NCBI GenBank assembly: GCA_921293015.1
Contig: OV121087.1
Location: 36,377,235 to 36,441,234, forward strand
Length of the DNA stretch: 64,000 nt
DNA from: Phorcus lineatus
Lineage: Eukaryota > Mollusca > Gastropoda > Trochida > Trochidae
Direction: 5' to 3'
How positions within the stretch are numbered: position 1 is the first letter of the stretch; each line of letters opens with the position of its first letter. The notes under the pieces were generated by a model. It was not told the origin of the DNA. It saw nothing but the letters and a program-made list of their open reading frames with translations, and made no database searches. Below are positions 1,484-53,610 of this stretch, one piece after another. A program made the translations under genes and the position numbers.

Positions 1484-1603
1484 ATGGAGTTGGAAGATAT
1501 ACCTGAAATGGACGAGGATAATATATCCATTGATGATGATATATCTGATGAATATATATCTGCTGATGAGGATATAATGGTGAATGAGGAACGTAAAGCA
1601 AAA
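1484..1603 (+). CDS. Candidate alternative first exon, acidic 40-residue N-terminus
   Basis: ATG 1484 follows an in-frame TAA two codons upstream (1478-1480). It is open for 40 codons and ends GCA AAA at GTAAGT (1604), phase 0, compatible with the acceptor at 52668. The peptide is strongly acidic with repeated Asp/Glu/Ile runs (MELEDIPEMDEDN, then SIDDDISDEYISADED) and ends basic (EERKAK). It is the longest candidate first exon here, so the least likely to be a chance ORF, although part of the Asp/Ile pattern comes from a repetitive GATGATGATATATCTGATGA stretch. If spliced, an acidic tail would precede the basic patch of the INF2-like exon. It could also belong to a different gene. Confidence 0.45.
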
Positions 1604-2223
1604 GTAAGTATGTCTTCAATAATGTAATGAAGGTGTGTGGCTAACGGTGAGAGAATAAAAACACAAGGGCACAAGAACTTATACTTCTTTTAAAGTTATC
1701 TAAATTTCCTCTCTTGCTAATTTCACTGACATTAAGTCAAACGAAAGCGTCAGTTACATTCTCACAGAGCATCAACGACAAACATCGTTTTAATTTATAA
1801 ACAATGGTGAAATGGTGAAATACGCCATTTTGGATACATTAAAATCCGTATTTTAACTGAGTGAAATAATGATACGATTCTATACTCAGTAAAATAACCC
1901 TACTATCATATGATTTTTTTCCTAATGAAAGGACCAATTGAATGACGTCATGAGAAGTCCACGATAGTGAAACGATATGGCTACTCAATTCATAAAATTA
2001 ACGTAATATGCGATACATTGGGGGATATGATAAACCGCACATTGACCTTTCTTGTCGAATAATATGTATATCTCATACTTTATCATTAAGCCCAAACGGA
2101 TTGACCACTCAGTCACCAAGCTTTGCTAAAACGCATCCCAGCAATTGACAGGTACATTAAAGACTCAGTTTAAACCGATTTAACTTATTAAACACATATT
2201 TGATATTAATAGAGATCAATTTC

Positions 2224-2360
2224 TATGGATTTACAACTTCTCTATTGCAGGATTGCGACGTTTCGGTGTAGATACTAACACCGTTATCAAGCAAGTGATA
2301 ACGGTTTTAGTATCTACATCGAACGTCGCGATCCTGCAATAAAGAAGTTGTAAATCCATA
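2224..2360. repeat. Long near-perfect inverted repeat (hairpin)
   Basis: A 65-base left arm (2224-2288) and a 64-base right arm (2297-2360) are reverse complements with only a few mismatches, separated by 8 bases. The left arm contains GGATTGCGACGTTTCGG and the right CGAACGTCGCGATCC. The arms are far longer than chance allows. It could be a foldback/MITE, a transposon end or a microRNA-like precursor. Confidence 0.8.
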
Positions 2361-5300
2361 AAACTTGTTCTCTATTCATTACACCAACTTCTAAATGCCT
2401 CTTAAAGAAATCTTTGATATTACCATATACTCATATGTAATGAAGCTGTTTGAAATCTTAATAATCTTTCGCGATGATAACTGCAATTTAGACCATTCGA
2501 CCTCATGCAGAATATGGTATACTTTCTTCTACACATCAGCGTACGTTAAATATTCAGATTATTAAACAAATCGCTGACCCATCTATAATTAACCTTCGCA
2601 ATAAAGTTTTTGAGAAAAGCTTTAATATTATTTATTTAACAAAAATGCTATGCAATATTATACTTTTACATCAGGTGACATTCCTGGATAATTCAATAAA
2701 AAAAAATCAATCCAATTATTAACCTCGAGTATCCTAAACATGTTATGATAACAGAAGTTATATGAAACTAATGTAGAAATATATCTAAGCCCACTGGGCA
2801 CAAGTTCTTAAGCGCGTGTATGTATCATTGTAAGATGAATATCGATTCGAAAATTTAAACAAAAAAAGAAACTTGGAACAATATAAGTTCGTGACTTAGA
2901 TTTTAGTTGAGGTCTTATACATGTATGTTATATGATATTATGAATATGAATACCAGAGTGTAAATTTTAATGAAATATTCTTTATATACGTGTTAAATAT
3001 GTAAGACACCTGGGGGCAAACTGATGATTCAGTGTTATATATTTCTTATATTTCAAAACTTTTCAAAAACTTTTGTCTGAATAATGTCACGGCAACAGTC
3101 TTCAGTCTTATTCGTGATTACAATTCTTTGCGTTTATAATTTTATAAGATTATTTTCACACTTTTAAGAATTGTTCTGGATTTTCAATATAAATATATAT
3201 AAAATAACATCATGAGCACTTAATTTATGTTGAAGAATATCTTTATTTTTGATTGGTTATCATTCGATGAATCAAGAACGTTCTATTTAATCACTGTAGG
3301 AAATATTATTTATATATTTTAGAAACAATGACATCGGCTTGATCTTAAAGGTAAATTAATTTTATGATAACATGAATATGGTTGTGTATACTCTCTAAAT
3401 CGACATCTCATTAAACCGGAATAATTTCCATTTTAAGGAAAGGGGTGTTTGGCTGAAAAAAGTATATTGTCCAACAGTTTTTTAATAAAATGACCCATGA
3501 GAAGGAAATTTAAATATATATATCATTGGTTACCTTGTCCCGATTTTTTCTGATCATGTTTACTCAGTACTCAAGAAATTGAAAGGAAATAAACAAAGAG
3601 GATTCACATGATGCATAGAACAAACGTGTCGAATACTTTTGAAGAATAATGTGTAAACATATTTTTCTAAAAATATCAAAAATCATGATAAATGTTTTAC
3701 TAAGATTTTATTTCTTAAGTGATATATTTCAATTCGTTGTAACAGCGCATTTTACAAGCGTCTTGAGCATTTACTCCGTGTGGACAGATAAGACAGAATA
3801 TCATTATCATAATTACTCATTACATAATTAACATACATATACATGCACAGATGATCTGCATGTTGTTTCAATTTGAGTATCTTATGTGTATTATTGCACG
3901 AAGATTTGGAGAGTATGAATGGCGTTCATACGATATTGATATTCTTCTATATACCGTTTATTGTTGTATATGTATGTGTTTGATTGGGCAGTTCTATCTA
4001 GGTACGTTTTATTGTGGAAACAAAATACCGCGAGATTTCTTTTACGTTTTAAATTCGAGAAAAACAATTATAATAAAGTACCGGGATTACTTTTCGATGT
4101 TAGTAGAACCCTCATTTAAAGTTCATTATCTTTATCATGTTAATTCTTGTTAAGCCAATAAATATCTCAAGGTAATTCCCATCTCTATTTGACAACTTCT
4201 CAAATAGTTGATTGTATGAGTCGAGATTCCTTTGTGCTATATACCTCTTATTGCTATTCGTGAAGGGAGATAACTGTTGAGTTGTAAATTCTTCTGAAGA
4301 CCACGTCCAGTGCTTAGCGATCTTTGAAGGTCGTCGTCTTATTTACTTTACGCTTACCTGTCCTTTCCCGGTCCTTCAGGTCTCGTCCACAATCTTTAAT
4401 GTCCTGGATTTAACGTAGCTCGTATGAGTATCAACATTGTCAAGTTTCCACATATATTCCCTTCTGTGGTGTCTATTTGGTTTTGATCTAATTTTGGATA
4501 CAAAAAAGACGATAAATTCATCTTTTACCATTTACATGATCGTTAATGAGATTCATAATGACATGAACCTATTGGTATTCGATGTCCCATCTAAATGGGT
4601 GAGTAGTTATAGTTTAACATCAAAAAGCACGGACTAAGATGTCAACCTTGGCGACCTCACTTTCCAAATTTAAAATTTACTTTTCAAACTTCAAAATTGA
4701 GTTACTTTGAAGAGATTACATTAGTAATAAATCGTCGGAACTCATTTAAGAAATATCAAAATTAGTTTACGAAAATATTTCATTCACGCTCGGAAAACCT
4801 ATCTTCTAATGTTACGATGTTGAGTCACATACATGTATATTGTTTGATTGAAATACCATGTGCATTTGAACATAAACGTAAAACAATGCTATTGACAATA
4901 GCTTTAAAGGAATGAATATTCAGTTGAAGTTAAACTGAACACACAAAACTAAGCACAGCCGTTGCCATATACATACTGCGACATATTCCTGATAAACTCA
5001 CTAGACAGGTTGTACAGGGGATTGATTTAAACTCTATTAAAACAGGAACCTAGTATACGCCTTTTTACATCCTTTTCAAATCTAAAGAACGTGATGGAAG
5101 CCATTATTTTTATTTCACTTTGTTAACCCGAACGCTGTTTTTAATACAATTTGTTATGAATATGCATGCAGTGACTTGTGGATTTTATTTCTTCCATGAA
5201 GCATTTAAAATGTTTAACTTTTTGTGTGTTTTTTTATCCTTTAGTCACGTGTGTGTGCAGTGAACATGCCTTATTTTCTAATATAAATGTTTTTCTTTCG

Positions 5301-5512
5301 CACTGATATTTTCACATTGTCACATCATTCGTTTTAATAAGGTTTCCTCGTAATTGTTAGTTTTGTCTTTTTAAGTGCGTTCTTACTTCAGTCTTTTTAC
5401 CTTTTTGTACTATTTTACACTTTTACCAAAACTTTTGCGTATAAGAACTTTTGTCCCCCTTAATATTTGTTAATCAATTCCAATTTTTGGTCCAATGATA
5501 TTTATTTGAACT

Positions 5513-5558
5513 TCTGGTATTCATTTAAATCTCTTTTTGTTCTTCTTTCATCCAAAAT
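5513..5558 (+). repeat. Direct repeat, copy 1 of 2 (other copy 6688-6734)
   Basis: About 46 bp (TTCTGGTATTCATTTAAATC onward to ATCCAAAAT) recur at 6688-6734 with one or two differences, about 1.17 kb apart. The second copy is embedded in the TC microsatellite, so it looks like a local duplication. Confidence 0.75.
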
Positions 5559-5839
5559 GTGTATATTTTCTATTCTTGTACCCACTTACGTTAAAAGCAT
5601 CCTGTTGACTTCGGTGTATGTTACTTGCTTTAAAATTGGAACGTCATCAGCTTCCCCCGCTATTGCACAGATGGTCCTCGTTATAAAGGTATGCCAGTAA
5701 TCAGCCCTCCACCCTCCTCTGATTCAGCCAGATTTGGCGCGAAGCAGCGCGTGACACAAACACCCACTCGCCAATATTTGTCACAAATTCTCGTGCAGTC
5801 GACAGCTTACTGAATGTGTCTGTGTTTTGTGTTCTCGCT

Positions 5840-5905
5840 ATGTTTTCTTCGATATGGATTACTGTCGTTATTGGGATTATCGTAATAATAGTTGTTGGAT
5901 TCATG
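5840..5905 (+). CDS. Candidate alternative first exon encoding a transmembrane-like N-terminus
   Basis: The segment runs from ATG 5840 for 22 codons, ending TTC ATG directly at GTAAGT (5906), phase 0, compatible with the acceptor at 52668. After MFSS the peptide is almost wholly hydrophobic (IWITVVIGIIVIIVVGF, residues 5-21), about the length of one membrane helix. The frame is open upstream to a TGA at 5720-5722, but 5840 is the first in-frame ATG. The preceding 140 bp (5700-5840) are locally GC- and CpG-richer than the flanks (for example GGCGCGAAGCAGCGCGTGAC), as expected of a promoter and 5' leader. The predicted product is a membrane-anchored formin isoform. The composition is AT-rich, and a hydrophobic peptide is easy to get by chance in such DNA, so transcript proof is needed. 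Confidence 0.48.
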
Positions 5906-6497
5906 GTAAGTTAATATATTTCTTGATATTTTATTTTCTAATATTAAATTTATTGATGGGACTTTATTTTGCAGTTTTGCCAAACTGCAATTTACTGTTG
6001 GAATAATAATCAGTTTATCAAATTTTCCCCTAACACATGATTGATGTTGTAATCAACATCGTCGCAATCTACGTCTTTGGAAATATGGATTTTTTTGTAT
6101 CCATTTCATTTTTTTGGTTTAATTCTTAATGCTTTTAATTTAAACATAAATCTCCGTGTTTGGAAATCGAACAATATCACTTGAATGTTCGTAATTTCGC
6201 TGATTGAATAAGTAATGATAAGTTTATGATAACATGTTTATACTTCAGCATCAATTTCAGGTACTTTGTGCCACTGTTAAATACTTTAGACTTCTCTCAG
6301 TCGCAGTGAGCGTGTATGGTTATTCGATTTATCCAGTGATAAGTTATCTTTCAGGAAACCACTCACTCTATTAAGAATTAACAAGATTCGAGACTGGTAA
6401 ATGGGAGTTGACATTTGTATTTGTGTTTCGATATCATTCTGATGCAGCACCACATTTATTGAGAAAAGACTGTTATCGTCATTGAAAATGCACAGGT

Positions 6498-6600
6498 ATT
6501 TCTCTCTGTCTCTCTGCCTCTCTCTCTCTCTGTCTGTCTGCCTCTCTCTCTCTGTCTCTCTGTCTCTGTCTGTATCTGTCTGTCTCTGTCTGTCTCTGTC

Positions 6601-6667
<67 letters not shown>

Positions 6668-6880
6668 CTCTCATGTCCCCCCTGCATTTCTGGTATTCAT
6701 TTAAATCTCTTTTTGTTCTTCTTTTATCCAAAATTCTCTCTGTGTCTCTCTGTCTCTCTGTGTCTCTCTCCTGTCCCTGTGTGTGTCTCTCTCATTCTCT
6801 CTCTGTCTCTGTCTCTATCTCTCTGTTCTCTCTCTCTCATTCTCTCTCTGTCTCTGTCTCTATCTCTCTGTTCTCTCTCT

Positions 6881-6956
<76 letters not shown>

Positions 6957-6957
6957 A
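6498..6957 (+). repeat. TC/TCTG microsatellite tract
   Basis: Long runs of (TC)n and (TCTG)n, interrupted at about 6660-6735 by a unique segment that duplicates 5513-5558, and at 6820-6885 by two copies of a CTCTGTCTCTGTCTCTATCT unit. All long ORFs on both strands here (Ser/Leu or Arg/Glu repeats) are translations of the microsatellite. Confidence 0.95.
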
Positions 6958-7110
6958 TACATCTTCGAAAAGGATTTCGTTTCACTTCCAATTGCCATCG
7001 TCTGATGTTAAACTAAAGGTTAACTGATCTGATGTTAAACTAAAGGTTAACTGATCTATACTACTCTATATCTCTGTTAATTCTGTCTATCCTTTTTATT
7101 TGTCTATCCC

Positions 7111-7181
<71 letters not shown>

Positions 7182-7290
7182 ATACATCTTCGAAAAGGAT
7201 TTCGTTTCACTTCCAATTGCCATCGTCTGATGTTAAACTAAAGGTTAACTGATCTGATGTTAAACTAAAGGTTAACTGATCTGATGTTAA
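6953..7290 (+). repeat. Duplicated microsatellite flank containing a minisatellite
   Basis: The sequence starting CGTAATACATCTTCG occurs at 6953-7057 and again at 7178-7290. Each copy is preceded by a (TC)n tract, the second at 7112-7177. Both end in tandem units GATGTTAAACTAAAGGTTAA, two in the first copy and three in the second. This is a recent tandem duplication of about 225 bp. Confidence 0.88.
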
Positions 7291-8065
7291 ACTAATGGTT
7301 ACCTGAGTAACTGTACACACTATGGTATCAATGACTTTTTTCAAGATAATTGCTGGTTGCTTTCTTGTCAACAATGTTTGGTCGAGTTTATGTTTGACAA
7401 TTTGTCAAAAAAGAACACTTGACGATACCGAGGGAAATGATGGTGGCAACTTTCGCCACATTATTATATGTATAACCTCCGTTCTAAAATATCCTCGTTA
7501 TTACAGACTTTTACTATTTTAAATGATATTTTTGGACAAATGAAAGTTGAAATCGATAAATTTATATATATAATATCATATCGATTAATGTGACAATTGA
7601 ATGATTGTTGCAGATAGTGGGTATACTATGTGCATGAGGTTTTGATGTTAAATGTCCTCGTGTTTGCATAAAGTTGCCATTTAAAGGATTTTTGTCTAAA
7701 ATCTATCGATTAGTTTTCACTGACCACCATAACAAGACATGTATACTTGAATGGAAGGAGATTTTTAATTTTACCCCGGGCACTATTTTACTGGAATTTT
7801 AGTCAGCAAGCTATGTACCCGTTTTTTCAATCTAAATTAGAGATGATCCAATAACAGTTTAGCCCCATTAGATAGGAATACTATCACAGTTAAACTTAGA
7901 AAAACTCCAGCAAGTCTTGACATGACTGACTGCAAACGATAGAGTAACCTTGTGTTTGACATTTTTAGTTTTCAATATCTCTTGATAGTGCTGTGATGTT
8001 AGAAAATGAATTATATATTTAAAAAAGCTTAATTTCAAATTCAACTCTTTGATAATTCATGCTTT

Positions 8066-13133: not shown

Positions 13134-13193
13134 ATGGACATGGACAGTATAGCAAGAACCACCGATGTTGCGGTGCACGCAGTGTACGACGGG
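13134..13193 (+). CDS. Candidate alternative first exon, 20-residue soluble N-terminus
   Basis: ATG 13134 opens 20 codons ending GAC GGG at a perfect donor GTAAGT (13194), phase 0. The peptide reads MDMDSIARTTDVAVHAVYDG. GC content is above 50 percent, a sharp step up from the AT-rich flanks; the 250 bp that follow are an A/T repeat. Adding these residues in frame to the INF2-like exon at 52668 would give a soluble variant. No known motif is recognised in the peptide. The compositional jump and perfect donor are the main support; without transcripts it remains a prediction. Confidence 0.48.
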
Positions 13194-16400: not shown

Positions 16401-17060
16401 GTTTTGATATCTTCACATTTTCAATTTTTTGATTTTATCATGCTTCATCTCGCCCTAATACATCAACGTACTTTGAATCCTCATAGTTCCTTCAAATCCC
16501 TGATATCTATAATGACAAATGCTCCGTATCGCTCTCAAGATAACCAGGAAGTGAAATAACTCCCATTCAGCAATAACGACAGTGCCCGGATGAAAGGATC
16601 CAAGGGCTCGAGATATTCATGCAATATATGGCCGCAATCTGGAAGCAAAATTGGGCATTTACCTCGACAGTTATTAGGGTATTGTAGAAGCTGTGCGGAT
16701 ACAAATTCATCGACGTAGGTTGAGGGCTTCATCATTTGTGAAAGGAGAATAATACAAGCTGATGCAATAATGGCTTATTATAACACACATATGAGAATTA
16801 TGTCCCGATTTCGGATATCAAATTAAGTATGTGTGAATGATCATAAACAATTTCTTCCTTAGTGATATGTACCTCAAACAAATTTCACACCATCGTTCTC
16901 ATAATCAAAGTGAACATTATGGGCAATAAAATGGAAATTTTCCGCATCAATGCCCATGGTTGATTGAAATATGTGACAATAAACCACAGCATCACTGTGA
17001 ACATATGCACATATACATCCCAGTGCGAGTTGGATCCATGTGGTCGTGTAAACAAAACAT
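13456..17060. other. Intronic/upstream sequence without supported genes
   Basis: AT-rich. A GC-richer patch at 14640-14740 has several CAGGTG/CACCTG E-box-like words (for example CTACAGGTGTGAGG, TTCAGGTGAGAG, CACACCTGACCTG); one could act as a donor of a non-coding exon. A CRE-like octamer is at 14962. The sequence from 16550 to 17060, ahead of the candidate exon, is somewhat less AT-rich than its surroundings. Confidence 0.4.
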
Positions 17061-17150
17061 ATGGAGCTAGGAATATGGAGCGAAATTTTGATGGTGTTGC
17101 TAATAGTTGGGGTGACAGCAGCGGACCTTGTCGCAATGTTTGCATGGGAC
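17061..17150 (+). CDS. Candidate alternative first exon encoding a hydrophobic signal-anchor-like N-terminus
   Basis: The open segment starts at ATG 17061, four codons after an in-frame TAA (17049-17051). It runs 30 codons and ends GGGAC at a perfect donor GTAAGT (17151), phase 0. The phase matches the acceptor at 52668, so splicing would fuse it in frame to the INF2-like exon. The peptide begins MELGIWSE, then has a hydrophobic core ILMVLLIVGVTAA (residues 9-21), Asp, and LVAMFAW. GC content (about half) is clearly higher than in the surrounding AT-rich DNA and resembles the secure exon. The strongly basic residues that would follow the core predict a cytosolic formin moiety with the N-terminus on the other side of the membrane. 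Alternatives are a first exon of another gene, or a chance ORF next to a chance donor. Confidence 0.55.
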
Positions 17151-18450
17151 GTAAGTACATAGGTTACTAGACTGGCTCGACGTCTCTGAAAAATAATTAT
17201 TTTAAAGGAAAAATGACAAGTGTTAAGGCGATCTATAAAGAACAATCAATTCGTTGCTTTAAAAATACTCTCCCTTCATATCTGATTTTGAAATGCCCTT
17301 TCAAGGAACAGTAGTATGGTTTTTAGATTAATAATGTGATCACACGAAAACGCTAATAACTGTTAGCAAATTGCAAGAAAATGTTATTTAAACAAAAGTG
17401 GCAGTTATAATTTGAAGGCACCATGATCAGTTAAGCAATTCTTGACCATTTCTCTACCTCGAATGGTAAAAAGGTGTTTACACAAAAATGGCCGCTAGGG
17501 GTTTTTGCTTGATAAATGATAATTTATTCTACGACTAGTTATGACGAGGTTTACTAATGAGATGTTTGACTCTCTGAAAATAATTCATTTGGCTTAAACT
17601 AATGATTATTGGGTACATTTGAAGAAATGACATTAACAAAAACATACTTATGCCCTTTAAAGAAGGATGATTGATATAGACTGACTAGCAGGTAATTTAG
17701 TAATGACCTCTGACAGTGTATGAAATAAGACCATTAGATACATTTTACATGTAGGTCTTCATTTAGTATGTCTAGATTTACACAAGGGCAGGACCCAGAA
17801 ATTAACATTCTACTATAACTCAACGCAGATTTAGTTTTTCTATAACGTCTAAACTATGTCATTATGTTATATATACTTTATGAATAATTATAACATAATA
17901 AATATATAATAACGAAATAAATTATTCCCGGCCTATTTGCCAATGCCATAGCAGACTTCATTCCCAAATATCCACCTGGTGTTTTTCTCTGTGAATTGAC
18001 TTGAAACCAGTTTCTATAACTTTAAAAATAAGATGTATAAAATGCAACTTCAGACAATGTTAGTGCTGTAAAACAGCAGCATAAGTGAATAAGTGAATGA
18101 ACAAAGTCATTCAGTTGGACAAAATATGATACAACTTTACATGATTTTTAATAACCACTATCACAAACGTGATTTCACTACACTGTATGATCGTGCTACA
18201 GCAGCTGTCAATAGGACTTTTTGTCCAGGATATTAGATGTCATAGTTTATCTGACATATATGTTTGAATACAAGCTGTTGACATATGTTCATCAGCTCAC
18301 CACTACACATTCCGAGTTATAATGTTAAGTATAATTCAGAATGGCATACAGTTTTTGCATAGCAAGTATAGGCTTCATTGAATCAATGAAACGTTTTCAC
18401 ATATTAGAGCTCAGTTCTTTGATTCATGATTTACGTGTAGTGTTCCATTT

Positions 18451-24600: not shown

Positions 24601-24977
24601 TATAAACCGACAGAAATTAACGCTCTAAAATTGCATAGTTGTCACTCCAGCCGCTGTACTCCAGTTGTATTTAATCGTCGGGGTTCGGCGTAGAGGTATA
24701 TGAAGTATACGGGTTCAAGACCACATATCGCCAAAACATTTGAAAATTAGAATTTGAACAACGAGTTATTTTTCAAAAAAGAATAGTGTTATAAAACATT
24801 ACCTCTCATAACCACCATCCACCCCCACGACACCCTCCCCTCTTTTCCAATTTTAGTTAAATCAACAAATTCACATTTAGAAGCTAAATTTTAAAATGAA
24901 ATAAAATATTTCAGACGTATCATGTCGACTAGTCAACAAGTTTTTCAACACTGTTGGACAACTGTTGATAAGACTTG
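21636..24977. other. Intronic sequence without supported genes
   Basis: Apart from the hairpin at 22751-22850 I see AT-rich unique sequence. The stretch 24290-24560 is less AT-rich and open on the minus strand, but the peptide is not recognisable. Confidence 0.35.
22751..22850. repeat. 100-bp hairpin with 40-bp arms
   Basis: The left arm 22751-22790 (TTTTGTTTGAGAACACCCCC...) and right arm 22811-22850 are reverse complements with about four mismatches, around a 20-base loop. The size and mismatch pattern are those of a microRNA precursor or a tiny palindromic MITE. Confidence 0.8.
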
Positions 24978-25437
24978 TTAAATAGCCACTCCGTGATTTT
25001 CATAACATATTATTTACCTTTGATACGAACCTAAATGTCATATGTGGTGATATAAAATCAAAATATCTTAACTTTTCATGTCAAAAAGACATATATATGA
25101 CAAATACTAGTTTTCCTTGAAATTAAGAAATAGCCTTATAAATGCAAGGTGTAGATATCACGTCCAATATACATGGATACTAGTTAACTTAATAAACATT
25201 ATCAACTCCTAACTGTTAGTTAGATAAGTCTTCAAAATTACGTTTGACTATTTGACGCGCGCCACAGTCCGGTTTTCGATCATAATTGCGACGTTCTGCC
25301 TTCATATTGTCACTGTAAAATCCCCAAAAAGCTTTAAAATGTCTCTTTTTGGTAACAGTCGATGCTTCGCGATCAAATGACACCATTGATCAAGTTTGGC
25401 ATATATGACTCCAACAATTCACGGAGTGGCTCTTTAA
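24978..25437 (+). mobile_element. TTAA-flanked MITE, copy 1
   Basis: About 460 bp. The left end TTAAATAGCCACTCCGTGA and right end TCACGGAGTGGCTCTTTAA are terminal inverted repeats flanked by (or including) TTAA. Internal landmarks shared with the other copies are ACGTCCAATATACATGGAT and ATTTGACGCGCGCCAC. There is no coding capacity; it is a non-autonomous DNA transposon. TTAA duplication is typical of piggyBac elements, but a longer TIR with a TA duplication cannot be excluded. Confidence 0.88.
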
Positions 25438-26768
25438 CAAGTCATCACCCAGTCATCATTTTAATGATAACCGCATCAAGTATCGTCTGAAATTTTTTCA
25501 AATATTTTTCTTTACTTGATACCTACTAACCTATTTTACTTGGTTATTTCAAGCTAGAAGGTATCTCCCTGCCAGCTGAAAAATATAGCATTTGTTCTTG
25601 CAAAGACGCATACATCAATAGGAAAAGAAATTCCCTGTACAATAACTGTCACCTTCTATTCATTATTAATGTCTTTGGTATGGGCGATGCAGTAGCAATG
25701 TGCATCTATGGCGTGGCATCATAAGTCTTCAAGGAAGGATACAGCCCGTCTATTTATGTGAGAAAAAGATATTGTGAATCTACGAGATAAAAAAATGCTT
25801 CTGTTTTTTTTACTTACGAAATATAGACTGAAACCACGTCTACATCTAAACATGTTGTTTTTATATTTGCCAAACTAGAAATTTATTGTTTATGCCTCGA
25901 ATATCGAAACAATAAAAATGAGTGAAAACCACTTCCTCTTACTCAGCCTATTGTTACGTAAAACATAAGGGAATATTCAACAGGCGTAGGGTTACCATGG
26001 AGATACTATTAGGATGCGTAAGTGAAGAAGAAGAAAAAAAGAGAAAAGCCCACACTATGTATTTTGAGTGTCAAGTGAAAACACCATTTACATCACTCAG
26101 TGAAAATTGCATTGTGAAACCCATAAATCCTTGCACTTTAGAGCAGAGAGGGGGAAATCATTGAAGCTCTGAAACCTTTCATTAATGTAGATTTGAAAAT
26201 GTTTGAACTACTTTGCTCTTTCACAGCTGTTACGTTTTAACTTTTATTTATGGTCTTTGTCTGTGTATCTACAAAACATCAAGTATTAGTAGTAAAACCT
26301 GATTAGTTTAAGTGTTTGAAAGAACAATAATTTGTAAAGACAAATTAGATTCATCTGCACCTATTCTTAGTACATCAATGCCAGTATGATCTTTATTATC
26401 AACTATGAAGGAAGTTCTTAGACATAGATTTTTTTTTATAGATCTCCTATCTTTGCAATAAGCTTTACACTATACAAGTGAAGATCTACATGTATGTTGT
26501 GATGACAATACAATCTAAAATTGCAGTTGTTTTATAAGAGACCTGGCTCTATACTTGATTGGGTCAGTGGTGGATTAGAATACATGATGTGTACGGACTG
26601 TGTACTGCAGTTATGATAACCTGTTAGGATTACAATAGTACATTGTAAGTCTCTGGAAGAGCAATCTCAATGGCACTGCAGTCTTTTCTCAGTTACAAGT
26701 GTGCATAAGATATACTGGGCGTACACCGTCAGATGCCTATCAAATCGATTGGTAAATTGCACCTAAGG

Positions 26769-29698: not shown

Positions 29699-29722
29699 AT
29701 GGCGGAATCATTTTCTGAAGAG
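29699..29722 (+). CDS. Candidate alternative first exon, 8 residues (MAESFSEE)
   Basis: ATGG at 29699 starts eight codons (MAESFSEE) ending GAG at the donor GTGAGT (29723), phase 0, compatible with the acceptor at 52668. An Ala-rich or acidic short start ending in a splice donor is a common form of first coding exon. The 200 bp before it hold a degenerate direct repeat rich in CACG (see 29505-29640) and an E-box CACGTG, which could be promoter elements. The peptide is too short to judge by itself; support comes from the donor, the phase and the unusual upstream region. Confidence 0.38.
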
Positions 29723-30068
29723 GTGAGTTTGACTGGTTTCCTATTTGTAGACATCATAATTACATGAAATAATTAAGACAAATGAGTTGGCGTCCATTGC
29801 TATTGAAACTTAAATTACGCTCTGATATGTGGCACACATCTTTTCGACATTTGAGGAAATGTTTGGCCCCATCAGAGTGCTAAAACATCGGTCCAATATA
29901 TTGATAATAACTATCACAGTGAGAAGATTTATCCAAATATTGTGCCATTTCAGGATGTTGTATGTGCTTAGCTATCAAGAAATAATATATCACTGTACGT
30001 CTAAGAATCAGTAAAAATATATGACGGCGATCAATTGGTTAATGACGTCATCAATGACTTTTTCCATC

Positions 30069-30231
30069 GCAGTACCACCCAGGGTTAGTTCCAGCCGATA
30101 GCCTCAGGTTTCGCTGCACTGCATAGCTACAATACTGTTGCGGTCTTTCTTCCTGCAATATTACTAACAGCCTTGATATAAATGAAACAGTCTTGAAAGC
30201 GGCGTTAAACCAAAGAATACCTCACCTGACC
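30069..30231 (+). mobile_element. tRNA-derived SINE (family 1), 5'-truncated
   Basis: It matches the 3' half of the SINE at 41488: GCAGTACCACCCA, TAGTTCCAGCCGAT, TGCATAGC, CCTGCAATATTAC, TCTTGAAAGCGGCGTTAAAC, then CTCACCTGACC. The tRNA head is missing. Confidence 0.85.
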
Positions 30232-37939: not shown

Positions 37940-40149
37940 CTCTTGTCTTGATTTACGTCTTCTGTCAAAATTAGGGCAGCAGCGTTTATCAGAATGCTAT
38001 TGTAACAATTTTACATCTTACATAACCTTCCGTTGTTGAAATAATGTTATGTCAAGACGGATGCCATTATCCAGGCGACATTTATCAATGCATAATCCAA
38101 CTTCCGGTATAGTGGAGCAGACGACACTAATGTCCCGCGCAGACGTGAAGCGATATCGCATGGCCGAGAGTGGAAATGGTTCGCATGGCTTGTATGTGAT
38201 GATTATAGCCTCGCGGATATCCCAAGCAGTTTTCATTAGATCTTTGGTGTTAGTTTCATGAAAGGCACGCAAAACAAAGGTTTGGCATAAATGCGACAAT
38301 CCCATCTAGCCCAAGGGCAACTAGTTTCCGTCTAGTGTTTAATTGTGAAGATTTGCGGTGTCGTAACATGCACGAGGAACCATGTGACATTTACCAGTTA
38401 TTGCATTCCATATCCTAAGGAACAGTGTTTTCCATCGGCTGTGTTAATTTCCTTGGATTTTAGGATATTTCTGATTAGGTAAGACTTTTTATGAATATTT
38501 TCTACAAAATCAAATAGAATTTCGTGCTTTATTTTGGCGATGTACAGAACTAAAGTAATTTTAGGAAATTTTTATCAATAGTTTTTTATTTTGAGGGAAC
38601 ATTTGCTTATGGCTGCCTTTTTCATGTTTTGAATAACGATTTTCATGCATTGTTTATTAATCATGTATATGTTTCTGATTTTGGTAAGACGTTTCCACAG
38701 CATAGTGTATTGATACGTGTCGCGATACTAGAGATCCATCTCACTTTAAGGAGTCACAGATATTTGTATATGGTTTTAACAACAAATAAATCTAACTTAA
38801 TAACGCTTTTGTTGATATTTTAAACTTCATTTTTTTACTTCCATAGCCTTGCACATATGTAGGACTTTATGGTGCAAGAAATACAATATCTGCTATTCCT
38901 AAAATCATAAAACATGTTTATGTATTGCTTCGCTACAGAGACTATTCTATTTTAGACATGTATCGTTAAGAGTCATGTCGTATTTTGAATAATTGATAGT
39001 TTTTGTCTAATCTTAATTTTAAAACTTTGATTGATAATTCATGTTAATTCCTTTCAAGATAAAAACTGTCTATGAATTTTATGTTAATTATTCAAAGAAA
39101 TCAATATTTAAGAATCATGAATTTCCAATGTCTTAAAGCAAGGCTATTCAGACATAGCCTTGGCTTTATGTTCCAACCATGTTTTGAACCTAAGAAGAAG
39201 GTTTTCGAATATATTATTCATATTGTAAGTTGTATGTAAAAACCAATTTTTCGATGCATTTTCATGTCAATATTTACATTCAATGAAAGCCTTGATTACG
39301 GTTGTAGGGGAAATACGACCCGAAAAGAAATTATAGGACTAATATTTTGGATTATCGATAAAAATGTAAACATCTTTCATTTGCATAAAATCACAACATG
39401 TTGTGTGATAGCCATTTTTATCATAATTGTCCATATCGGAAAACCCTTACATGTCGTCACAAAAATCCCAGGTCGAGCTATTCCTTTCACAAACTTTTGA
39501 GCCTAATTGATTTCTGTGTATATCATTAAGTAAATGACTAGAATTTATTAAGTGGATAGCGTTACCTTTTCCCTTTTGTTGAGGTTAGAAAATGATTTCT
39601 CAAATGAACTGAAATTAATTTTACAAACTGCGAGGCACACCCTTGGGGCTCATATTTCAGCCATGTTTACAATCTATGTTAGTCAAAGTGGCGGTGCCCT
39701 GTCTTGTCAATAGAAGTTTGATTGATGCGACCTCTGAAATTGACATGGTAGTGACCTATTTGATATTGAAGTCTCAAGTATGTGTTCTAAGCGGCTTATC
39801 CTGAAGAGAAAGTTGAAAACCTTTATCATTAATCGTTTTTGAGGGGATGGTTGTCGTTCCACAATTTATTCTGTTAACTTTTCGTTTAAGAATTACTCAG
39901 TATTTGATTTCAAATGGGATATATAAGCTTGTTTGGCGGTTACTGGAAACAATCGTGTCGATATGACCGACTTACAGGGAAAAGTGCTCTTGAATTTTAA
40001 AAATTTAAGTTGTACATGTAAGGATATAATTAAACAATTTGTGTGTGTTTGTTTTTGGATACTTTTGTGTAAAACAGTGGGTCTCCCCCTGAAATAAAAA
40101 TGAGTCTATTTAGATATAATTTCTTGGCAAGCGCATTTGACAGGCTCTA

Positions 40150-41487: not shown

Positions 41488-41777
41488 GGGGGCGGGATAG
41501 CGCAGTGGGTAGCGCGTTCGGCTTCGGATCAGGAGGTCCGTGGTTCGAATCCAGGGCAACTTTGTCTGCAGTAGAGAACTGTTCTACACGCAGTCAGGTT
41601 TGGGTGCAATGCTACACTGAAATTCAGCGCAGTACCACCCATGGTTTGCTAGTTCCAGCCGATGCTCGCAGGTTTCACCGCAATGCATAGCCTCTCCCTG
41701 CAGTAATACTAGCAGCCGCGATATAAGTGAAAAAATCTTGAAAGCGGCGTAAAACACCAACTCACCTCACAACTCAC
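41488..41777 (+). mobile_element. Full-length tRNA-derived SINE (family 1) with target-site duplication
   Basis: The 290-bp element opens with a tRNA-like head (GCGGGATAGCGCAGTGGGTA; A-box TAGCGCAGTGG near 41499; B-box GGTTCGAATCC at 41542-41552). Internal polymerase III promoter boxes are thus intact. A unique body follows, then TCTTGAAAGCGGCG and an ACTCACCTC-type tail. It is flanked by 15-bp direct repeats with one mismatch (CTCTTTATATTTATC at 41473-41487; CTCTTTATATCTATC at 41778-41792), so it is a fairly recent retrotransposition. Confidence 0.92.
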
Positions 41778-43998: not shown

Positions 43999-45595
43999 CA
44001 CTGTAAACAATTACCGTTGAATTAACAATCCATGTACCGTTTTTTCTATACGGTAAAATACTGTTGTTCTTTTTTACGGTGCATCACTGTAAATAAAATT
44101 GTCCTACTGTCGATCTACCGTTATTCCAATACAGGGCGAAACCGTGATTTACTTTACCGGCAAAGTACTGTTACAATACCATAAAGACGGTAATGCATGT
44201 TTGTTTTAGAGAATTGTGGGGTATAATACTGTAAAGTACCGTTTCGAATTGCATCATGGGATGTAATCCGGGTATGTAGTTGATGGGCGCCATTTTTCGG
44301 AACCACGTTTTTATCCAGCGGTAGGCCATATATTTGGCGCTGTGTGGTATTTGAAAGGGTACTTTATTTTGTTTACGGATTTTTAGATTATTTACATTTG
44401 GTATTATGTAGTTGTTTATATTCATGCTGCTGTCAACTTCCGTAGGTTTATTTTGGAGCGTTCTGTAGACGTATGTCAAGCTGATGGTAGCCTAACTTTC
44501 ACTTGTGGGATTTGGCTCATCTATTTGATCTCATTTTTTATGACTCTGGTTTATATGATGTTATAACGAAAGCTCAGTTAGGTTATTCAGGTTAGGTACC
44601 GAGTTTAACTTTTGACTCTAATTTGACCAAAAATTTAGTTGTTTAACATGAGATACATGACAAAGAAAATAGTCCCTTTGTATTGTCATATTTCCATTGT
44701 TACTCAGATTTATGTTTTAAGATAGTTTTAAAACACCAGCATAAATTTCCATTGATAAAGCTAAAATAAGAGTTGAGAAGTCATAATAATACCATGGTAC
44801 AATAATATGTGACCATTTTGCGAAATGTCAGCTTGATGCTGGATTTTTTAATGAGGTGTACCAAGAATGTTTGAGAGAGTTCTTGCACATTCTAGTCTGC
44901 AGACAAAATTCATATATTTAAGTTGATGCAAAAAATCCTGCTCTTATGATTTATTTACAAATCTTTTGTGATTTTTGGGTTACTAAAGATTGTCTTTTCC
45001 GAATAAATATCCAATGTTTAACTCAATTGGTATGTTGTTTTTGGAGACAAGTTAATGTTAACTATTTTCACCGTTGCATGTTCTATTGGCAAGCTGTTTT
45101 GTCAGTTAAGACAGACTGATTGAATTTATAGATCCCTGGGAACCCTTCAGTTGTTTCTATTCTCATCCCTGTGCTGTACCAATGGTATATTGCATCTGCT
45201 TGGCAACAGAATCATGTACATACAGGGCTTTACTGTATCTATACAGTGTTTGTACCGTATCTATGTATCTTAGTACGGTATATTGCTTGGCAGTTGGATG
45301 ATTGTACCGTACCTACGGTAAATTACATGGCAGCTGGTTGCCAGCAAGTAACCGTAACTACAGGGTTGTACCGTATCTACGGTATATTGCCTGGCAGCTG
45401 GTTGCCAGCAATTTACCGTAACTACAGGGTTGTACCGTATCCACGGTATATTGCCTGGCAGCTGGTTGCCAGCAATTTACCGTAACTACAGGATTGTACC
45501 GTATCTACGGGGTCACAGTTTCTTAAAACGGTAACTTGCTGGCAACCAGCTGCCAGGCAATATACCGTTTTAAAATACGGTAATTGTTTACAGTG
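43999..45595. mobile_element. Non-autonomous CACTG-ended DNA transposon with internal minisatellite
   Basis: Left end CACTGTAAACAATTACCG (43999) and right end CGGTAATTGTTTACAGTG (to 45595) are perfect 18-bp inverted repeats. ACGGTA/TACCGT words are scattered in both subterminal regions. CACTG termini with subterminal repeats resemble CMC (CACTA/Chapaev) elements. No transposase ORF is present. No clean target-site duplication is visible. The interior is otherwise AT-rich. Confidence 0.75.
45268..45520 (+). repeat. Minisatellite with about 64-bp units inside the CACTG element
   Basis: About three and a half units of TACCGTATCTACGGTATATT, then GCCTGGCAGCTGGTTGCCAGCA, then TTTACCGTAACTACAGG. 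A reverse-complement copy of the GCCAGGCAA/GCTGGCAACC block sits just before the right terminus (45535-45565), so the tandem array appears derived from the subterminal repeat. The 104-codon ORF here is a translation of the repeat. Confidence 0.88.
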
Positions 45596-45738: not shown

Positions 45739-45783
<45 letters not shown>

Positions 45784-45812
45784 TTTTCTCTCTCTCTCTT
45801 TTTGTCTCTCAC
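45667..45812 (+). repeat. (TCTG)n/(TC)n microsatellite
   Basis: TCTG and TC repeats of about 140 bp lie 70 bp beyond the CACTG element. The minus-strand Arg/Glu/Thr/Asp ORF is an artefact of the repeat. Confidence 0.92.
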
Positions 45813-47060
45813 TGACCTCATTATCTCATTTCCAGTAAATATATTTAGTAACGACAATATACTGAATTTGACAGTTATAGATTAACACAAAGTTATATCG
45901 AGGTTGTTTTAATCCAGGTTAATTAATCTAGTTGCGGAAACTCAACGTCTGGGGGAATTTCAATAACGTTGTTGTCTATTGAGCACAACTTTCAACCATA
46001 TAAAAACTCCTGGTTTGGTTTAAGGATCATAAATGACGATTGTTGTTAAAAAATATACGTGCGACTGACGAAATGGATCTTTCACTAGATGTAGAGTCGG
46101 AAGAATGCGACCTTTTTATTTACATAGGTCAAGATTAGGACTGCGTGACGTTTTGATCTTCTACAACACCCAGAAATAGTTGTTCTGTTTACTTGACAAT
46201 TCTAAAGCTTATTTTCACATGTCGTTAATCCTAAGTATTCATTATCATTTATCTTAAAACGGGTTGGAAAATTCTAAAACAAGGAACCTTTTCAATAGGT
46301 TGCTCATTTTGATTTCCTTGCCCATATGAAATTCAAGATAACTATACAATGTATTTCGCCGATTGTGTCATTAACGTTTAAATGCAACGTTGCATATTGT
46401 TATACGTTTTTACTTTCAGAGCATGTAAAACTGCTTATATAACCTGCCTGCATGTCTATTGGTATTCATTGAGACATCCCTTGGCCTATCCCTCAAATAT
46501 TCCGGTTTTACTGGCTAAACCGGTGCAATAAACTACCGAATGAAACGGTCCTGAAATAGAAAATTGTATATCGGCGTTATACACTGTCGATTGGCGTCGA
46601 ATTCACCTTAAATGACATGCTGGAGGGAAGAAGACAATTTTGTATCGTTAGCGAGATCATGTATTAAATCCCTGCTTATTAGAAGGTTAATGCCTGAGGG
46701 GATTATCAGAGTTTTAAGGTTTTAGTTATTTATAGTTAGCATAATTACAATAATTGGTATCTCATGGCAATATCTGTACGAGTTATTGGATTAATGATAA
46801 AAGCTTGATGTGATATTTTGGTGCTCCTTTCTTTTGATGAAAACTTGTCTTCAAACACTTGTGCTAATGTCAACATAAAGCAGTTGTGTCCGTTAAAAAA
46901 ATAACACACATGTTTTTACTTATTTGTTTATCTTAGTGTAAACATTATGTTATGTGTGTTTGTTTATCAGGTTAATGCTACAAGCATTTTCTATCGAAAA
47001 GTTAAATTCCGAATTATGAGGGAAGTGGACTAAGAAATTCTCCATCTGATTTGATTAGAC

Positions 47061-47537
47061 TTAAAGAGCCACTCCGTAAATTTCATAACATATTATCTAT
47101 CTTTGTTACTAACCTAAATGTCATATGTGGTGATATAAAATCAAAACATCTTAACCTTTCATGTCGAAAAGACATACATATGACAAATGCTGGTTTTCCA
47201 TGAAAATCTAAAAACAGCCTTATAAATGCACAGAGGTGTAGATATCACGTCCAATATACATGGATGCTAGTTATAAAACCTAACAAACACTATCAACTCC
47301 TAACTGCCCTCCTGACTGTTTTAGATAAGTCTCCAAAATTACGTTTGACTATTTGACGCGCGCCACTGTCCGGTTTTCGATCATGATTGCGACGTTCTAC
47401 CTTCATATTGTCACTGTAAAAAAACAACAAGCTTTAAAATGTGTCTTTTTATTAACAGTCGATACTTCGCGATCAAACGACACCACTGATTAAGTTTGGC
47501 ATATATGACTCCAACAACTCACGGACTGGCTCTTTAA
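47061..47537 (+). mobile_element. TTAA-flanked MITE, copy 2
   Basis: 477 bp. Ends are TTAAAGAGCCACTCCG and CGGACTGGCTCTTTAA. The internal sequence follows copy 1 throughout (ACGTCCAATATACATGGATG, TATTTGACGCGCGCCACTG). Confidence 0.9.
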
Positions 47538-47924
47538 GCTATACTGTTTGATCAAAAGAATATTTAGGGAACATATCATGATGAGCGAAATTCTTCCAAA
47601 ACGAAAACATAACTTGATATTTGAGATTCATTTGTTATGATTATCTCGATGAAAGTTTTGATTTTGGCCTCATCTCATCATTTCTGGCTACTTTACTTAA
47701 TTATTTTGGGAACAAAAACCGAAGTTTTAATGTTATTCAAGTAGATTCATGTCATTTCGACTCTTTCCATGTTGTCGATGTATCTTGGCCGCCATCGGCA
47801 GAAATTCCTTCCGTTACTGAATAAAATATTGAATATTTGTTTTTTTCTTTCCAACATGGCTTATGGTTTCTCATTCTTTATGAAGCGGCCATGGAGTATA
47901 TGTTTGAATTGTGGTATCTGAGGG

Positions 47925-48078: not shown

Positions 48079-48088
48079 GTTGACATTC

Positions 48089-49545: not shown

Positions 49546-49708
49546 AAGCGAGACTGCGTCCATAATAGAAGTGAGACTCATCGTTATCGACCCGGGCTAA
49601 CTAACCTACTCGCTGACGGTCCACGCTACTGCATCTCATTAGGCCGGGTCGTGAACGATGAGACATTTCTAATTTGGACGCATTCTCACTTTAAATGTCC
49701 ATATCACA

Positions 49709-49830
49709 CAGTCTGATTAAAATCGACCATGTTCCGAGGAATAAAAGTTTCAAAAGATTGACTCCACCCAGATACGAACTCATATCTGTCTAGGCTATCC
49801 TCTGCACAACGGTCTGAAGGCAGCCTAACT
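49709..49830 (+). mobile_element. Truncated copy of the hAT-like foldback element
   Basis: It begins CAGTCTGATTAAAATCGACC and continues through GTTCCGAGGAATAAAAGTTT and CTGTCTAGGCTATCCTC to CACAACGGTCTGA, matching the left arm of the element at 32793. The loop and right arm are absent. Confidence 0.82.
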
Positions 49831-52649
49831 GTGATTGTGCTGTTTGCAAAATTTCACGAACATTGTTAGGTTTGAAACACTCGTAAAAGAGTAGTTTATG
49901 CTTTGTTTCAGTGTATATTTTTGCACGACATTTTAATATGGAATAACCCATATTCCTGATGGTGAAGATCACATTGATCAAAGTTAATACTTACTTTCAT
50001 TCTCCCCCAAATAGTGGTAACTCCGTCATAAATTCCTATATAAACCTCTGAACTAATAAGAGCATTTCTTGGTATAGAAATGTATCGTTCAAAAAGCCTC
50101 AGTTTTTTTCTTATGCTTGGGTGAAACTAAACTTTATTCGAATATAAACTCTGCACTTTCGGTCTTCTTTACAGAAAACAATCGCCTTATTTAGCGATTG
50201 CTTCACTACATAGAACTCAGTGACACAAATATACTATCCATATATACTATCCATATATGCGGTGTTTTCGTTGGCTGATATATTGCTTCTAGTGTATGTT
50301 ACAATATTTTTCCGCTAGGAGAACCTGCTGGTAGCCCGAGCAGGAAATGTTATTACTAAAGCGGTTAGTTACTTAGTACAGACATTTTAGGAGCTACCCC
50401 TGCGTGAAGAGAAATTTTCGCTTCATGCGTAGGCGTAGATTATACAAATGTGATTTTTTTCTCAGAATACCTCCAAAACATGCTTGAAGTTATACCGACT
50501 GAACAAAATGAAATATATCTCCTGGACATGGAAATACGTTCATTTCCATCAAACGAAACTTTTCATATATATGCAATAGATATGCAATAGTTAGATAGTT
50601 AAATCTTAAGATAGTCTATGTTTAAGTATATGATGTAATAGACACTCTTTTTATAATCAACTACATGTGCAAAATATATTTATGTTCATTGTTTACTATC
50701 TTATTTCACTGGTACCGTAGAAATGTCAATTTACTTAATATAAATCCCTATATTAACTTAATGTGTTAACAGGTATATTCATTCTGTAAATTAATGTATT
50801 TGTGTAAATGTATATAAGAATGTCATTGATCTTCGGTTCAAATTGGAGGAAATAAAGACTCGTTCCAAAAACGTCTCTAAACATGAGTACAAGTTGGACA
50901 CAGAAATCCTATAATCGATGTCGTAAAATGTTCATGTGCTTCCGATAATGTTCAATCAAGATAAAATAGTTAAATATTCGTCCAGTTTCCCAATAATTGA
51001 AACTCCAGTGAGTTAACTTGACTTGGGACATTCGAGTCAAAACTAATCATGGTTGTCATAGTCTATCCTAAACACGTCATAACTCTTTTGGATGCTAACA
51101 TTTATGTATTTAATAACTGAAATATTGCTGACAACATGTCAAACCCTTCTCGCTCAATTCTTCAATCAAGTTTCAAACGCGACCCACTGAAGCGGTCGTA
51201 AAAGAACTTCAGAAGGCGAGACACAATGACATAGTTTACTCTCATTCTCGGTTTATGTAAACACGTTCTACGCTGTTGGCTTAGCCTTCAGCTTTCGTAT
51301 GTTTGAGCGGTCTAATTAATTTCGAGGAAACGAAGTGCTTTTTTGACAATTCAATAGCCTTTTATTTATGTACTCATAAAGCTATTACACATACTATGCC
51401 GGATATGAATCATATTAATTAGTAGTGTAGGCCTATAACATACAAGTAATGTTTAAATCAACAACGCCCTCGAATGTTTTATAAAATAACGAATACGGGT
51501 CACAACAACCAACCAGGTATGAGGGGTGAACATTTATTATGGAATGCAGTTCACAGGTTCTAAAATATCGCCCCAGTAGGAGCTCTAAATATCACCCGTC
51601 TACCCGGGGTGTATGTCGTGCTACGTGGGATCGGCTTGACAATATAGGTCACACTCCCAAATATTGAAAACAGGAAAGGGGATAATTTCATATCCCTCCC
51701 ACGCTGAATAAGTTGAAGTTTGGATTTTTGCGTTGGTTTGTAAAAGTGAGATTCGCGGATATATTTTTGTAAGTATTAATGCCACATTCGTTTATTTAGT
51801 TGACATGCCATAGGATAACCTAATGTCCATTCATGTTAAAGATCTGTTAGCTCGGTTTGAGGACACATTTTAGATAGGGATACACTTTGTTAGTATGATT
51901 GTTCTATAGGATATGTCCGTATACCACCTACATGGTGATAGCCTTAAAGTTAGTAGAACTGGAATGTTTATTACGTTATTCATCAACTGATAACAGACAA
52001 TATAACAATAACGTCCAGTCTGTGGTAACAGGTTTTAAAAGGGATAGCCACTTAAAAAATTCAAGCTTTCTGGACTAGGATTTTGAGGTCTAGATGAGAT
52101 ACGTAGCGCATGTTTTTAATCACATAAATTGTCATAGGGTCTATGTATGAAACACGAGCTTACATAGTGAAATGTATTTGAATCCAATATTTGTGAGCGG
52201 CTGCATTTTCAGTATTCTTAGAACACTTGGTATGTTTAACTTTTCCTGGTACACCTGCCATATTTCACTTCCTTGGTACAATTTGAATGTACATATTGTC
52301 GTTTACTTGTATGTGTGTTGGAGATTTATGTCAGACAGACGGAAATAATGATTTTTATTTAATTCGTTATGCTCTTTGAATGGGTAAAGTTCAATGCACA
52401 TGTCATATACATTTCATGATTTTTGTGCACACATGTTATAATAAATACTGTCATACTCAAACATGTGGATTTCCAGATTCGGGTTATAAGATGAACTTAT
52501 GTACACTTGTGTATTAGTCCAAATAACCCTTAATACTCCCTAAAACACGTGTCATAGTAGTCAACGTACATAGTACATCTGTATTTTTTATCCTTGATTA
52601 TCAAATGACTGGATGAATAAAGGCAGGAAAACGAAAGGGTAATAATGTT

Positions 52650-52667
52650 CTTTACTTGTTTTTTTAG
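52650..52667 (+). promoter_or_regulatory. Splice acceptor of the INF2-like exon
   Basis: The tract TTCTTTACTTGTTTTTTTAG ends at 52667. Translation of the exon from 52668 (GTG TGG TCA AAC ATG) is open, so an upstream phase-0 exon reads straight through. Confidence 0.8.
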
Positions 52668-53610
52668 GTGTGGTCAAACATGTCCAGTCTCTTTCGACGG
52701 GTCAGCAACCTCGTATGGGGGTCCCGTCGGTCCACGAGAGAGAAAGACAAAAAGAGTCCTCGAGGAGGACGAAAGAAGAAAGGAAAGAAGGAGAACGAGG
52801 ATGACTCGAAGAAACAAGCTCTAAATAATCCCAGTGGGACGGATCACACTTCAGTCAGCCGAGACGGTCATGCTCAGAAAAGCAAAATGGCGGCTGTAGC
52901 AGACGACAGTTTAGATGGCGATGTGACGAGGGCTGAGACACACGCTGAACCCGCGGATATGATTGTCAGCTGCAGAAGCGACAAACTCAACAACAACCCG
53001 CCTGGTGCACGAGATATGTCGGATGCACAACTAGGCTCTGGCAAACAAAACATGGACTCTCAGTGTGAACAACAGAGCAGTAAGGAGAAGGAGTTCACAG
53101 AGTCGGGGGAGTCGCAGAACTCAGGCTTAAGTCATTTGGATCATTTGTCCGATAAGGAGGCTTCTATTCTGCTTAACGAAATGTACGGCGATTCGCCATC
53201 CCATTCGGATAAGGAGGGAGAGGCAGCGAAAGAGAATAAACCCAAGAAAAAAGGATTTAAACATATTTTACGAAGAAAAATAAGCGCCACTTTGACGAAC
53301 ATAGACCTGGAGCAGTGTGATCCTGAGATCTGTGTGAGTCTTTTGAAGATTCCTTCGGTGAATACGTTTGGTGCCTTAAAGAAAAAGGTCAAGTCTAGTG
53401 GAAAAGTGTGGATCCAAGGATTCCTGGACGCCAATGGTCTTGATGCTCTTATAGATTGTGTGGATACCCTGGGAAGTAAACGAGTCACCCAGCTCTCCGA
53501 CGCTCTGTTACTCCTTGAATGTGTTGCTTGCATTAAAGTTGTCATGAATTCCAAAAGTGGTCTGGAATGTCTTGTACAGCATCCTGATTATGTCCGAAGA
53601 CTTACAAAAG
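52668..53610 (+). CDS. INF2: INF2-like formin, N-terminal coding exon (start of DID/FH3 domain); partial gene
   Basis: INF2-family formins nucleate and sever actin filaments; the DID domain encoded here binds the C-terminal autoinhibitory region and regulators. The exon follows a T-rich tract and AG at 52666-52667, with an in-frame TAG at the boundary, so coding must enter by splicing or start at the ATG at 52680 (A at -3). Counting from that ATG: a basic patch at about residues 15-36 (RRSTREKDKK, GGRKKKGKK), a Ser/Glu/Lys-rich probably disordered stretch to about 206, then the DID start from D214 (DPEICVSLLKIPSV, GLDALIDCVDTLGSKR, QLSDALLLLECVACIKVVMN, YVRRLTK). This matches the INF2 N-terminus closely, including conserved SDALL and VMNS. 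Vertebrate INF2 has only about 30 residues before the DID, so this N-terminus is much longer. The donor GTACGT at 53611 leaves phase 1, as expected ahead of the next family residue (Ala). GC content is well above the flanks. The remaining DID, FH1, FH2 and C-terminus lie outside the window. The family assignment is confident; the true start depends on the upstream exon. Confidence 0.9.

Follow-up and report, generated by a model that had tools for sequence, protein, structure and literature searches.

The window analysed here, a stretch of 64,000 nucleotides of the Phorcus lineatus genome (C12:36377235-36441234), contains near its downstream end a real exon from the 5′ part of an INF2-type formin gene, which we call exon A (Table 1). 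A reading of the window made from its letters alone (the sequence-only reading) had placed an INF2-like formin and a splice acceptor at this position, and had further proposed that five short segments upstream act as alternative coding first exons, all joined to that acceptor. The formin is borne out, since the translation of exon A matches the Pfam family Drf_GBD at 5.4e-10 and, in a comparison with PDB, human INF2 at 7.4e-24. As judged from the sequence, alternative first exons of this INF2 gene appear better supported by the pair formed by exon A and a second exon, B, which lies beyond the window, than by the upstream array.

We fetched 100 kb on each side of the window and scanned the resulting 264-kb stretch for exons, and the genome-wide searches covered 958 Mb in 74 contigs. 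Coordinates above 64,000 continue the window numbering downstream and lie outside the window. Splice sites were scored with generic, approximate matrices and are ranked among 3176 GT and 2513 AG sites. Codon-use scores were trained on a small set of 1575 codons. In their synonymous-only, leave-one-out form, all 19 homology-supported exons are positive, from 0.023 for exon A, the lowest, to 0.503, and the non-coding mean is about -0.21 to -0.24.

Of the 213 + strand exon candidates in the 264 kb, exon A ranks first, by a score that was trained partly on exon A itself. It codes for an N-terminal extension of ~207 residues followed by the first half of the diaphanous inhibitory domain (DID). Vertebrate INF2 has a calmodulin-binding helix before the DID, and by reading we note a basic segment, KKKGFKHILRRKIS, 5′ of the DID in exon A. 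The acceptor, TTCTTTACTTGTTTTTTTAG/GTGTGG (slashes mark splice junctions), exists as claimed; it scores 5.7 and belongs to the top 0.4% of AG sites. The exon opens GTG TGG TCA AAC ATG, with the ATG in frame 12 bases past the acceptor. The quality of this acceptor means that some exon 1 should lie upstream, but because exon A has its own ATG, coding segments that end in phase 0 are not needed there and an untranslated exon 1 would suffice. Exon 1 of human INF2 is untranslated. If the same applies here, the ATG at 52680 is most likely the start codon.

Two DID first halves and one formin body

Two further DID exons, B (41% identical to A, 7e-16) and C (38%, 2e-14), follow downstream on the same strand. 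Exon B has an ATG and a stop-free frame of 146 codons up to its donor, its synonymous codon use (0.174) resembles that of the known exons, and on its own it matches human INF2 with 55 bits (6.5e-14). All three exons end in phase 1 (A, ACA AAA G/GTACGT; B, GCA ATA G/GTAAAT; C, GCC GCA G/GTAGGT), and the exon 3 that follows B opens TTGCAG/CT CTT GAC, where CT completes the codon GCT. Comparison of the paralogues showed one set of features twice, once after B and once after C: exon 3, exon 4, the next DID exon, FH1 and FH2. Between A and this exon 3, no extra copy of exons 3, 4 or 5 was detected by the same searches that detect them in the body after B and in C. Likewise, the genome-wide search found no FH2 between A and B, and no formin body was found within 38 kb after exon A.

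Table 1. Features of the INF2 locus and the five upstream segments (window numbering unless a contig is given)
Feature	Position	Strand	Remarks
INF2 exon A	52668-53610	+	acceptor 52648-52667; 314 codons and one base; phase-1 end at donor GTACGT (53611)
In-frame ATG of exon A, MSSLFRRVSNLVWGS...	52680-52682	+	A at -3; context TCAAAC/ATG (here the slash precedes the ATG)
DID first half in exon A	53289-53610	+	ungapped against human INF2 to residue 130
Exon B	ends 81783	+	DID first half, phase 1; 28 kb downstream of A, 17 kb past the window end
Proline-rich (FH1) frame	94417-95541	+	precedes FH2
FH2 matches	C12:36473924-36474094, 36474785-36475054, 36477585-36477785	+	genome-wide FH2 search
WH2/DAD-like motif, CIIDRLLKDIKKGYSLRK	103970	+	loose pattern; shared body, after FH2
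Acidic segment	1484-1603	+	overlaps 15-base tandem repeat (1531-1569); probably a chance product; donor ranks 36th
MFSSIWITVVIGIIVIIVVGFM/GTAAGT	5840-5905	+	membrane-like; donor ranks 7th; codons used as in non-coding DNA; low probability
MDMDSIARTTDVAVHAVYDG/GTAAGT	13134-13193	+	donor rank 4; the one segment of the five whose codon use resembles coding DNA
MELGIWSEILMVLLIVGVTAADLVAMFAWD/GTAAGT	17061-17150	+	membrane-like; donor ranks 34th; codons used as in non-coding DNA; low probability; single copy
MAESFSEE/GTGAGT	29699-29722	+	donor rank 1 of 3176; A at -3, G at +4; 8 codons; single copy in the genome at search sensitivity

Exon A fits the body that follows B without a seam. A protein assembled from the translations of exon A and exons 3-5 (the edges of exons 4-5 were set by eye) matches residues 25-282 of human INF2 with 261 bits; there is no gap at the junction, YVRRLTK/ALDTSN as compared with human YVRQLSQ/ALDTSN, and only small gaps occur further on. 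In human INF2, variants at L69, G73 and V108 are assigned to exon 2 and those at G157-L162 to exon 3, so that the boundary of the two exons falls somewhere after residue 108 and before residue 157, consistent with the join observed here at 130/131 (PMC10368640). The body itself is that of an INF2-type formin, with an INF2-related N-terminal DID, FH1 followed by FH2, and a WH2/DAD motif after FH2. The last of the FH2 matches includes a TAA, as when a match overruns the end of an exon. We take the motif CIIDRLLKDIKKGYSLRK to resemble the WH2/DAD motif of human INF2. The frame that contains it (...NKDESKC) has no CAAX box at its end, though it is not necessarily the last exon.

Thus, two first coding exons with their own ATGs and equal end phase face one common acceptor. 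The single exon 3 for two DID first halves, the phase-1 ends and the seamless junction between A and exon 3 point to A and B as a pair of alternative first exons, and we consider it probable that this is one INF2 gene in which each of them supplies part of the autoinhibitory domain to one body. An upstream promoter would give exon 1 - exon A - exon 3, and a promoter nearer B would give exon B - exon 3. Each of the two would bring its start codon, a private N-terminal tail and its own version of the first DID half, and would join in phase 1 the single exon 3 of the shared body, with the second DID half, FH1, FH2 and WH2/DAD. The part of the DID from exon 3 onward would thereby stay constant while the tail and the first DID repeats change with the promoter, such that a single actin nucleator could be available to the cell in two versions under different regulation. 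Stops close the frame of B just 5′ of its ATG, so B cannot extend a protein begun at A, and the two never occur in one protein. A and B both retain the residues aligned with human W64, G73, C104 and N110; the positions corresponding to human L76 and V108 are among those at which they differ. The best acceptor 5′ of the ATG of B, in 81200-81384, scores 0.19 (0.85 inside the frame), as compared with 3.5-5.7 for A, C and both exon 3s.

A genome-wide search with exon A gave six matches, namely A, B, C, D, a weak match in a set E (C12:6222182, expect value 0.0098) and one at chance level, and a search with exon 3 gave five, in the shared body, C, E (1.2e-5) and D (0.0012), plus a weak match with a stop. 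C, D and E each have one DID first half and one exon 3; in these searches the A/B set alone combines a single exon 3 with two first halves. Gene C is a tandem INF paralogue on the same strand (119493-158100) with its own DID exon, FH1, FH2 and WH2-like motif. Gene D, an INF2-like formin at C12:17786362, 18.6 Mb off on the same contig, has DID exons followed by FH2 and matches human INF2 at 9.9e-20. Set E is a more distant formin-like set on the minus strand (C12:6222182, 6215178), with a DID-first-half frame, FH2 exons near 6.18 Mb and an exon-3-like frame that is 53% identical to the shared exon 3.

In a tree of the DID first halves, which comprises five rows, B groups with C (88/89) and A is nearer to human. 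Should this grouping be correct, gene C may have arisen by tandem duplication of exon B together with the body, in which case B would already have served as a start when the duplication took place. The same topology could be taken to say that A and B belong to two genes, one of which has its body lost or elsewhere, so that they share no transcript. We regard this as very improbable, because the stretch between B and C contains one exon 3 and one body, neither of which was found between A and B, and because A fits the shared body seamlessly.

Several points weigh against the A/B pair as we interpret it. The grouping of B with C falls short of the mark for firm support (95/80). The donor of B is weak (GTAAAT, 2.1 bits), and no TCAKTY or TATA word occurs in the 150-200 bases 5′ of its ATG. 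Middling acceptors lie at 80812 (2.97) and 80836 (2.15), ~510-530 bases 5′ of B, hence B might not be a true first exon but the second exon of a transcript with a long leader. For A, exon 1 stands at the level of a candidate, of which the segment at 29699 is the best. Finally, B could be the remnant of a lost gene copy. The locus would then be an ordinary INF2 gene, in which exon 1 is either untranslated or a short coding exon, exon A provides the start codon, and exon 3 and the body follow; B would be the unused, decaying remnant of a duplicated gene. The weak donor and the lack of a recognisable core promoter word at B would suit this account, as would the longer branch of B (1.09 vs 0.48 for A) and the presence of tandem paralogue C, which shows that the locus duplicates. 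It is at odds with the long stop-free frame of B, its coding-like synonymous codon use and its phase-correct donor. When neutral decay was simulated over half of the A-B divergence, the frame of B stayed free of stops in only 14 of 2000 runs. A decaying remnant is therefore conceivable, but we think it rather unlikely.

The segments upstream of exon A

The five segments that the sequence-only reading had listed are as it described them, in that each is an open frame that begins with ATG, ends in phase 0 and adjoins GTAAGT (four) or GTGAGT (one). We counted such segments, defined as open frames from an ATG to GTRAGT in phase 0 on the + strand, in positions 1-52667. There are 11, of which seven have at least 20 codons. 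Of these seven, the earlier list contained four, together with a further segment of 8 codons; 4536-4598, 39072-39224 (at 51 codons the longest) and 50948-51007 were missing from it. Null sequences from Markov models of orders 1, 2, 3 and 5 (100 of each) contain on average 1.4-1.9 segments of at least 20 codons, and seven is reached in 0 of 100 at every order. At other thresholds the observed count was reached, in the same sequence of orders, by 3, 0, 0 and 2 of 100 (at least 8 codons, nine observed), 1, 2, 0 and 2 (at least 15, seven observed), 10, 7, 4 and 9 (at least 22, four observed), 4, 9, 5 and 10 (at least 30, three observed) and 9, 8, 6 and 9 (at least 40, two observed). Neighbouring DNA holds, per 52.7 kb, 3.2 segments of at least 20 codons in the upstream 100 kb and 2.9 in the downstream 110 kb (both + strand), and 2.2 on the minus strand of the 264 kb. 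For the same donors, phase 0 is richest, with three segments of at least 20 codons in phase 1 and one in phase 2. The excess that had been claimed at 20 codons or more thus stands against the Markov sequences and is modest against real neighbours; it depends on the threshold, being strongest at 20 codons and weak at 22 or more. A jump in GC content had also been noted at two of the segments. It is present within 13134-13193 (0.55) and 17061-17150 (0.48), but the surrounding 500-base windows are ordinary.

If several of these segments were alternative coding first exons spliced to 52668, the protein would begin with an acidic, a membrane-anchored or a soluble leader, an arrangement that would be compatible with the A/B pair. 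The donors speak for it, since those at 29722, 13193 and 5905 are among the seven best GT sites, and so does the prevalence of phase 0 at such donors. The transmembrane-like character ascribed to 5840 and 17061 is confirmed: their hydropathies of 2.84 and 2.55 lie above ~99.9% of locally simulated open segments and are equalled by 0.05-0.15% of these (fractions of about 0.001 and 0.0005), and among 33 segments of at least 19 codons on both strands of the 264 kb only these two reach 1.6. This hydropathy was tested post hoc, however, after the membrane-like character had already been pointed out. As the WH2 frame has no CAAX box, another membrane anchor is conceivable. Furthermore, 1-52667 contains no other strong + strand exon candidate to which these segments could be joined instead, none there scoring above 16.6 as compared with 100 for exon A, in a scan that recovers 12 of the 19 known exons at its print threshold despite having been trained on them, and that misses B. 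The two segments searched genome-wide, 17061 and 29699, are both single copy, and we discarded the idea that they are dispersed repeats. Within the window and its flanks, no close second copy of any of the five was found, 5640-6105 and 16861-17350 giving short weak matches.

Codon use argues in the other direction. The synonymous-only score is about -0.25 for 1484, 5840 and 17061 and -0.43 for 29699, at or below the non-coding mean, and chunks of known exons that score as low as these four are rare (0, 2.9, 1.8 and 3.9%, respectively). Only 13134 is positive (0.095), a value that 5.6% of non-coding segments reach. The objection is softened by the first 20 codons of exon C, which score close to zero (-0.035), such that short N-terminal exons can look neutral. 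With amino-acid content included in the score, the fraction of non-coding segments at or above the observed value is 0.009 for 13134, 0.020 for 1484, 0.086 for 17061, 0.860 for 5840 and 0.143 for 29699, the last being uninformative because 8 codons are too few for a useful coding test; by this score 13134 and 1484 resemble coding DNA, 17061 is marginal and 5840 does not. We did not accept 1484 as coding on this basis, as its synonymous part is null-like and it overlaps a tandem repeat, and coding on the opposite strand at 17061 was likewise rejected (minus-strand frame, -0.28 per codon). Given these values, the modest excess and the ATG that exon A has of its own, we consider a coding array into 52668 unlikely. 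The five segments would be mostly products of chance, 1484-1603 probably so, and coding leaders at 5840 and 17061 have a low probability. Of the proposal that this INF2 gene has alternative first exons, the general idea is supported by A and B, and the listed segments are largely unsupported. One of the five may be exon 1, either as a coding or as an untranslated exon, and the segment at 29699 is the strongest contender; an initiator-like word, TCAGTC, lies 59 bases upstream of it, though words of this kind have an expected frequency of 0.35 per 150 bases.

The two arrangements could also be combined into a switchboard for the N-terminus, in which the upstream array would provide membrane (5840, 17061) or soluble (13134, 29699) leaders to A, an internal promoter would provide B, and gene C would descend from a copy of promoter B together with the body. 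The choice of promoter would then place one actin nucleator on membranes or in the cytosol and tune its autoinhibition. We give this scheme very little credence.

No other gene was recognised in the window upstream of exon A. Pfam searches with 10 window frames of 100-128 codons, five of them in 1-52 kb and chosen apart from repeat-derived and shorter frames, gave nothing at the cut-off (one sub-threshold hit, expect value 0.18), and the window contains no Rfam family at gathering score and no tRNA. Two sets of dispersed repeats, by reading similar to short interspersed nuclear elements, recur across the window and the formin introns (24977-25438, 47060-47538, 54800-55279 and 61451-61919 for one; 30059-30220, 41555-41765, 59491-59652 and 61975-62198 for the other). 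A long CT repeat at 6501-7306 has 27-base units, TCTGATGTTAAACTAAAGGTTAACTGA, in two clusters, and at 45302-45510 a 64-base unit is repeated 3.3 times in tandem with a palindrome-like word, CCGTA...TACGG. Beyond the window, the nearest strong upstream exon candidates are ~60 kb away, with long transposase-like and reverse-transcriptase-like frames in between, ~26-38 kb upstream (piggyBac-like and DIRS-like by reading).

Relation to other formins and actin nucleators

The mitochondria-anchored isoform of Spire, another actin nucleator, reportedly arises from an alternative exon. As we propose for the A/B pair, the choice of this isoform alters where the nucleator works, but Spire gains an anchor, whereas the INF2 gene would swap one half of a regulatory domain for another version (PMC4574297). 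In C. elegans, one formin gene, FHOD-1, is described as giving long and short isoforms with partly different roles in tissues, which is reminiscent of our case; the difference lies in a cassette exon with a coiled coil and not in a replaced DID (PMC6027879). Drosophila Form3, a relative of INF2, is likewise an INF-type formin with an N-terminal DID, but it has no DAD and is transcribed in two forms, of 11 and 12 exons, and the available part of that account mentions no alternative DID (PMC12045603).

Human INF2 itself is described with isoforms that are C-terminal variants, whereas here the N-terminal half of the DID would differ (PMC11589041). Its N-terminal extension is given as 35 residues, as compared with about 200 in exon A (PMC9616786). 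A limited literature search, which covered its sources in part, found no report of a second exon-2 equivalent or of alternative DID exons in INF2.

In this context, a series of 10 index patients is of interest, in which neuropathy accompanied the kidney disease when the INF2 variant lay in exon 2, the exon of the first DID half, whereas variants in exons 3-4 were associated with kidney disease only (PMC10368640). If A and B are indeed alternative first exons of one gene, P. lineatus would offer a natural exchange of the first DID half with the second half and the DAD held constant, and thus a ready comparison for the role of the first half. It would also mean that the regulation of INF2 has diversified at the inhibitory domain, beyond the C-terminus alone.

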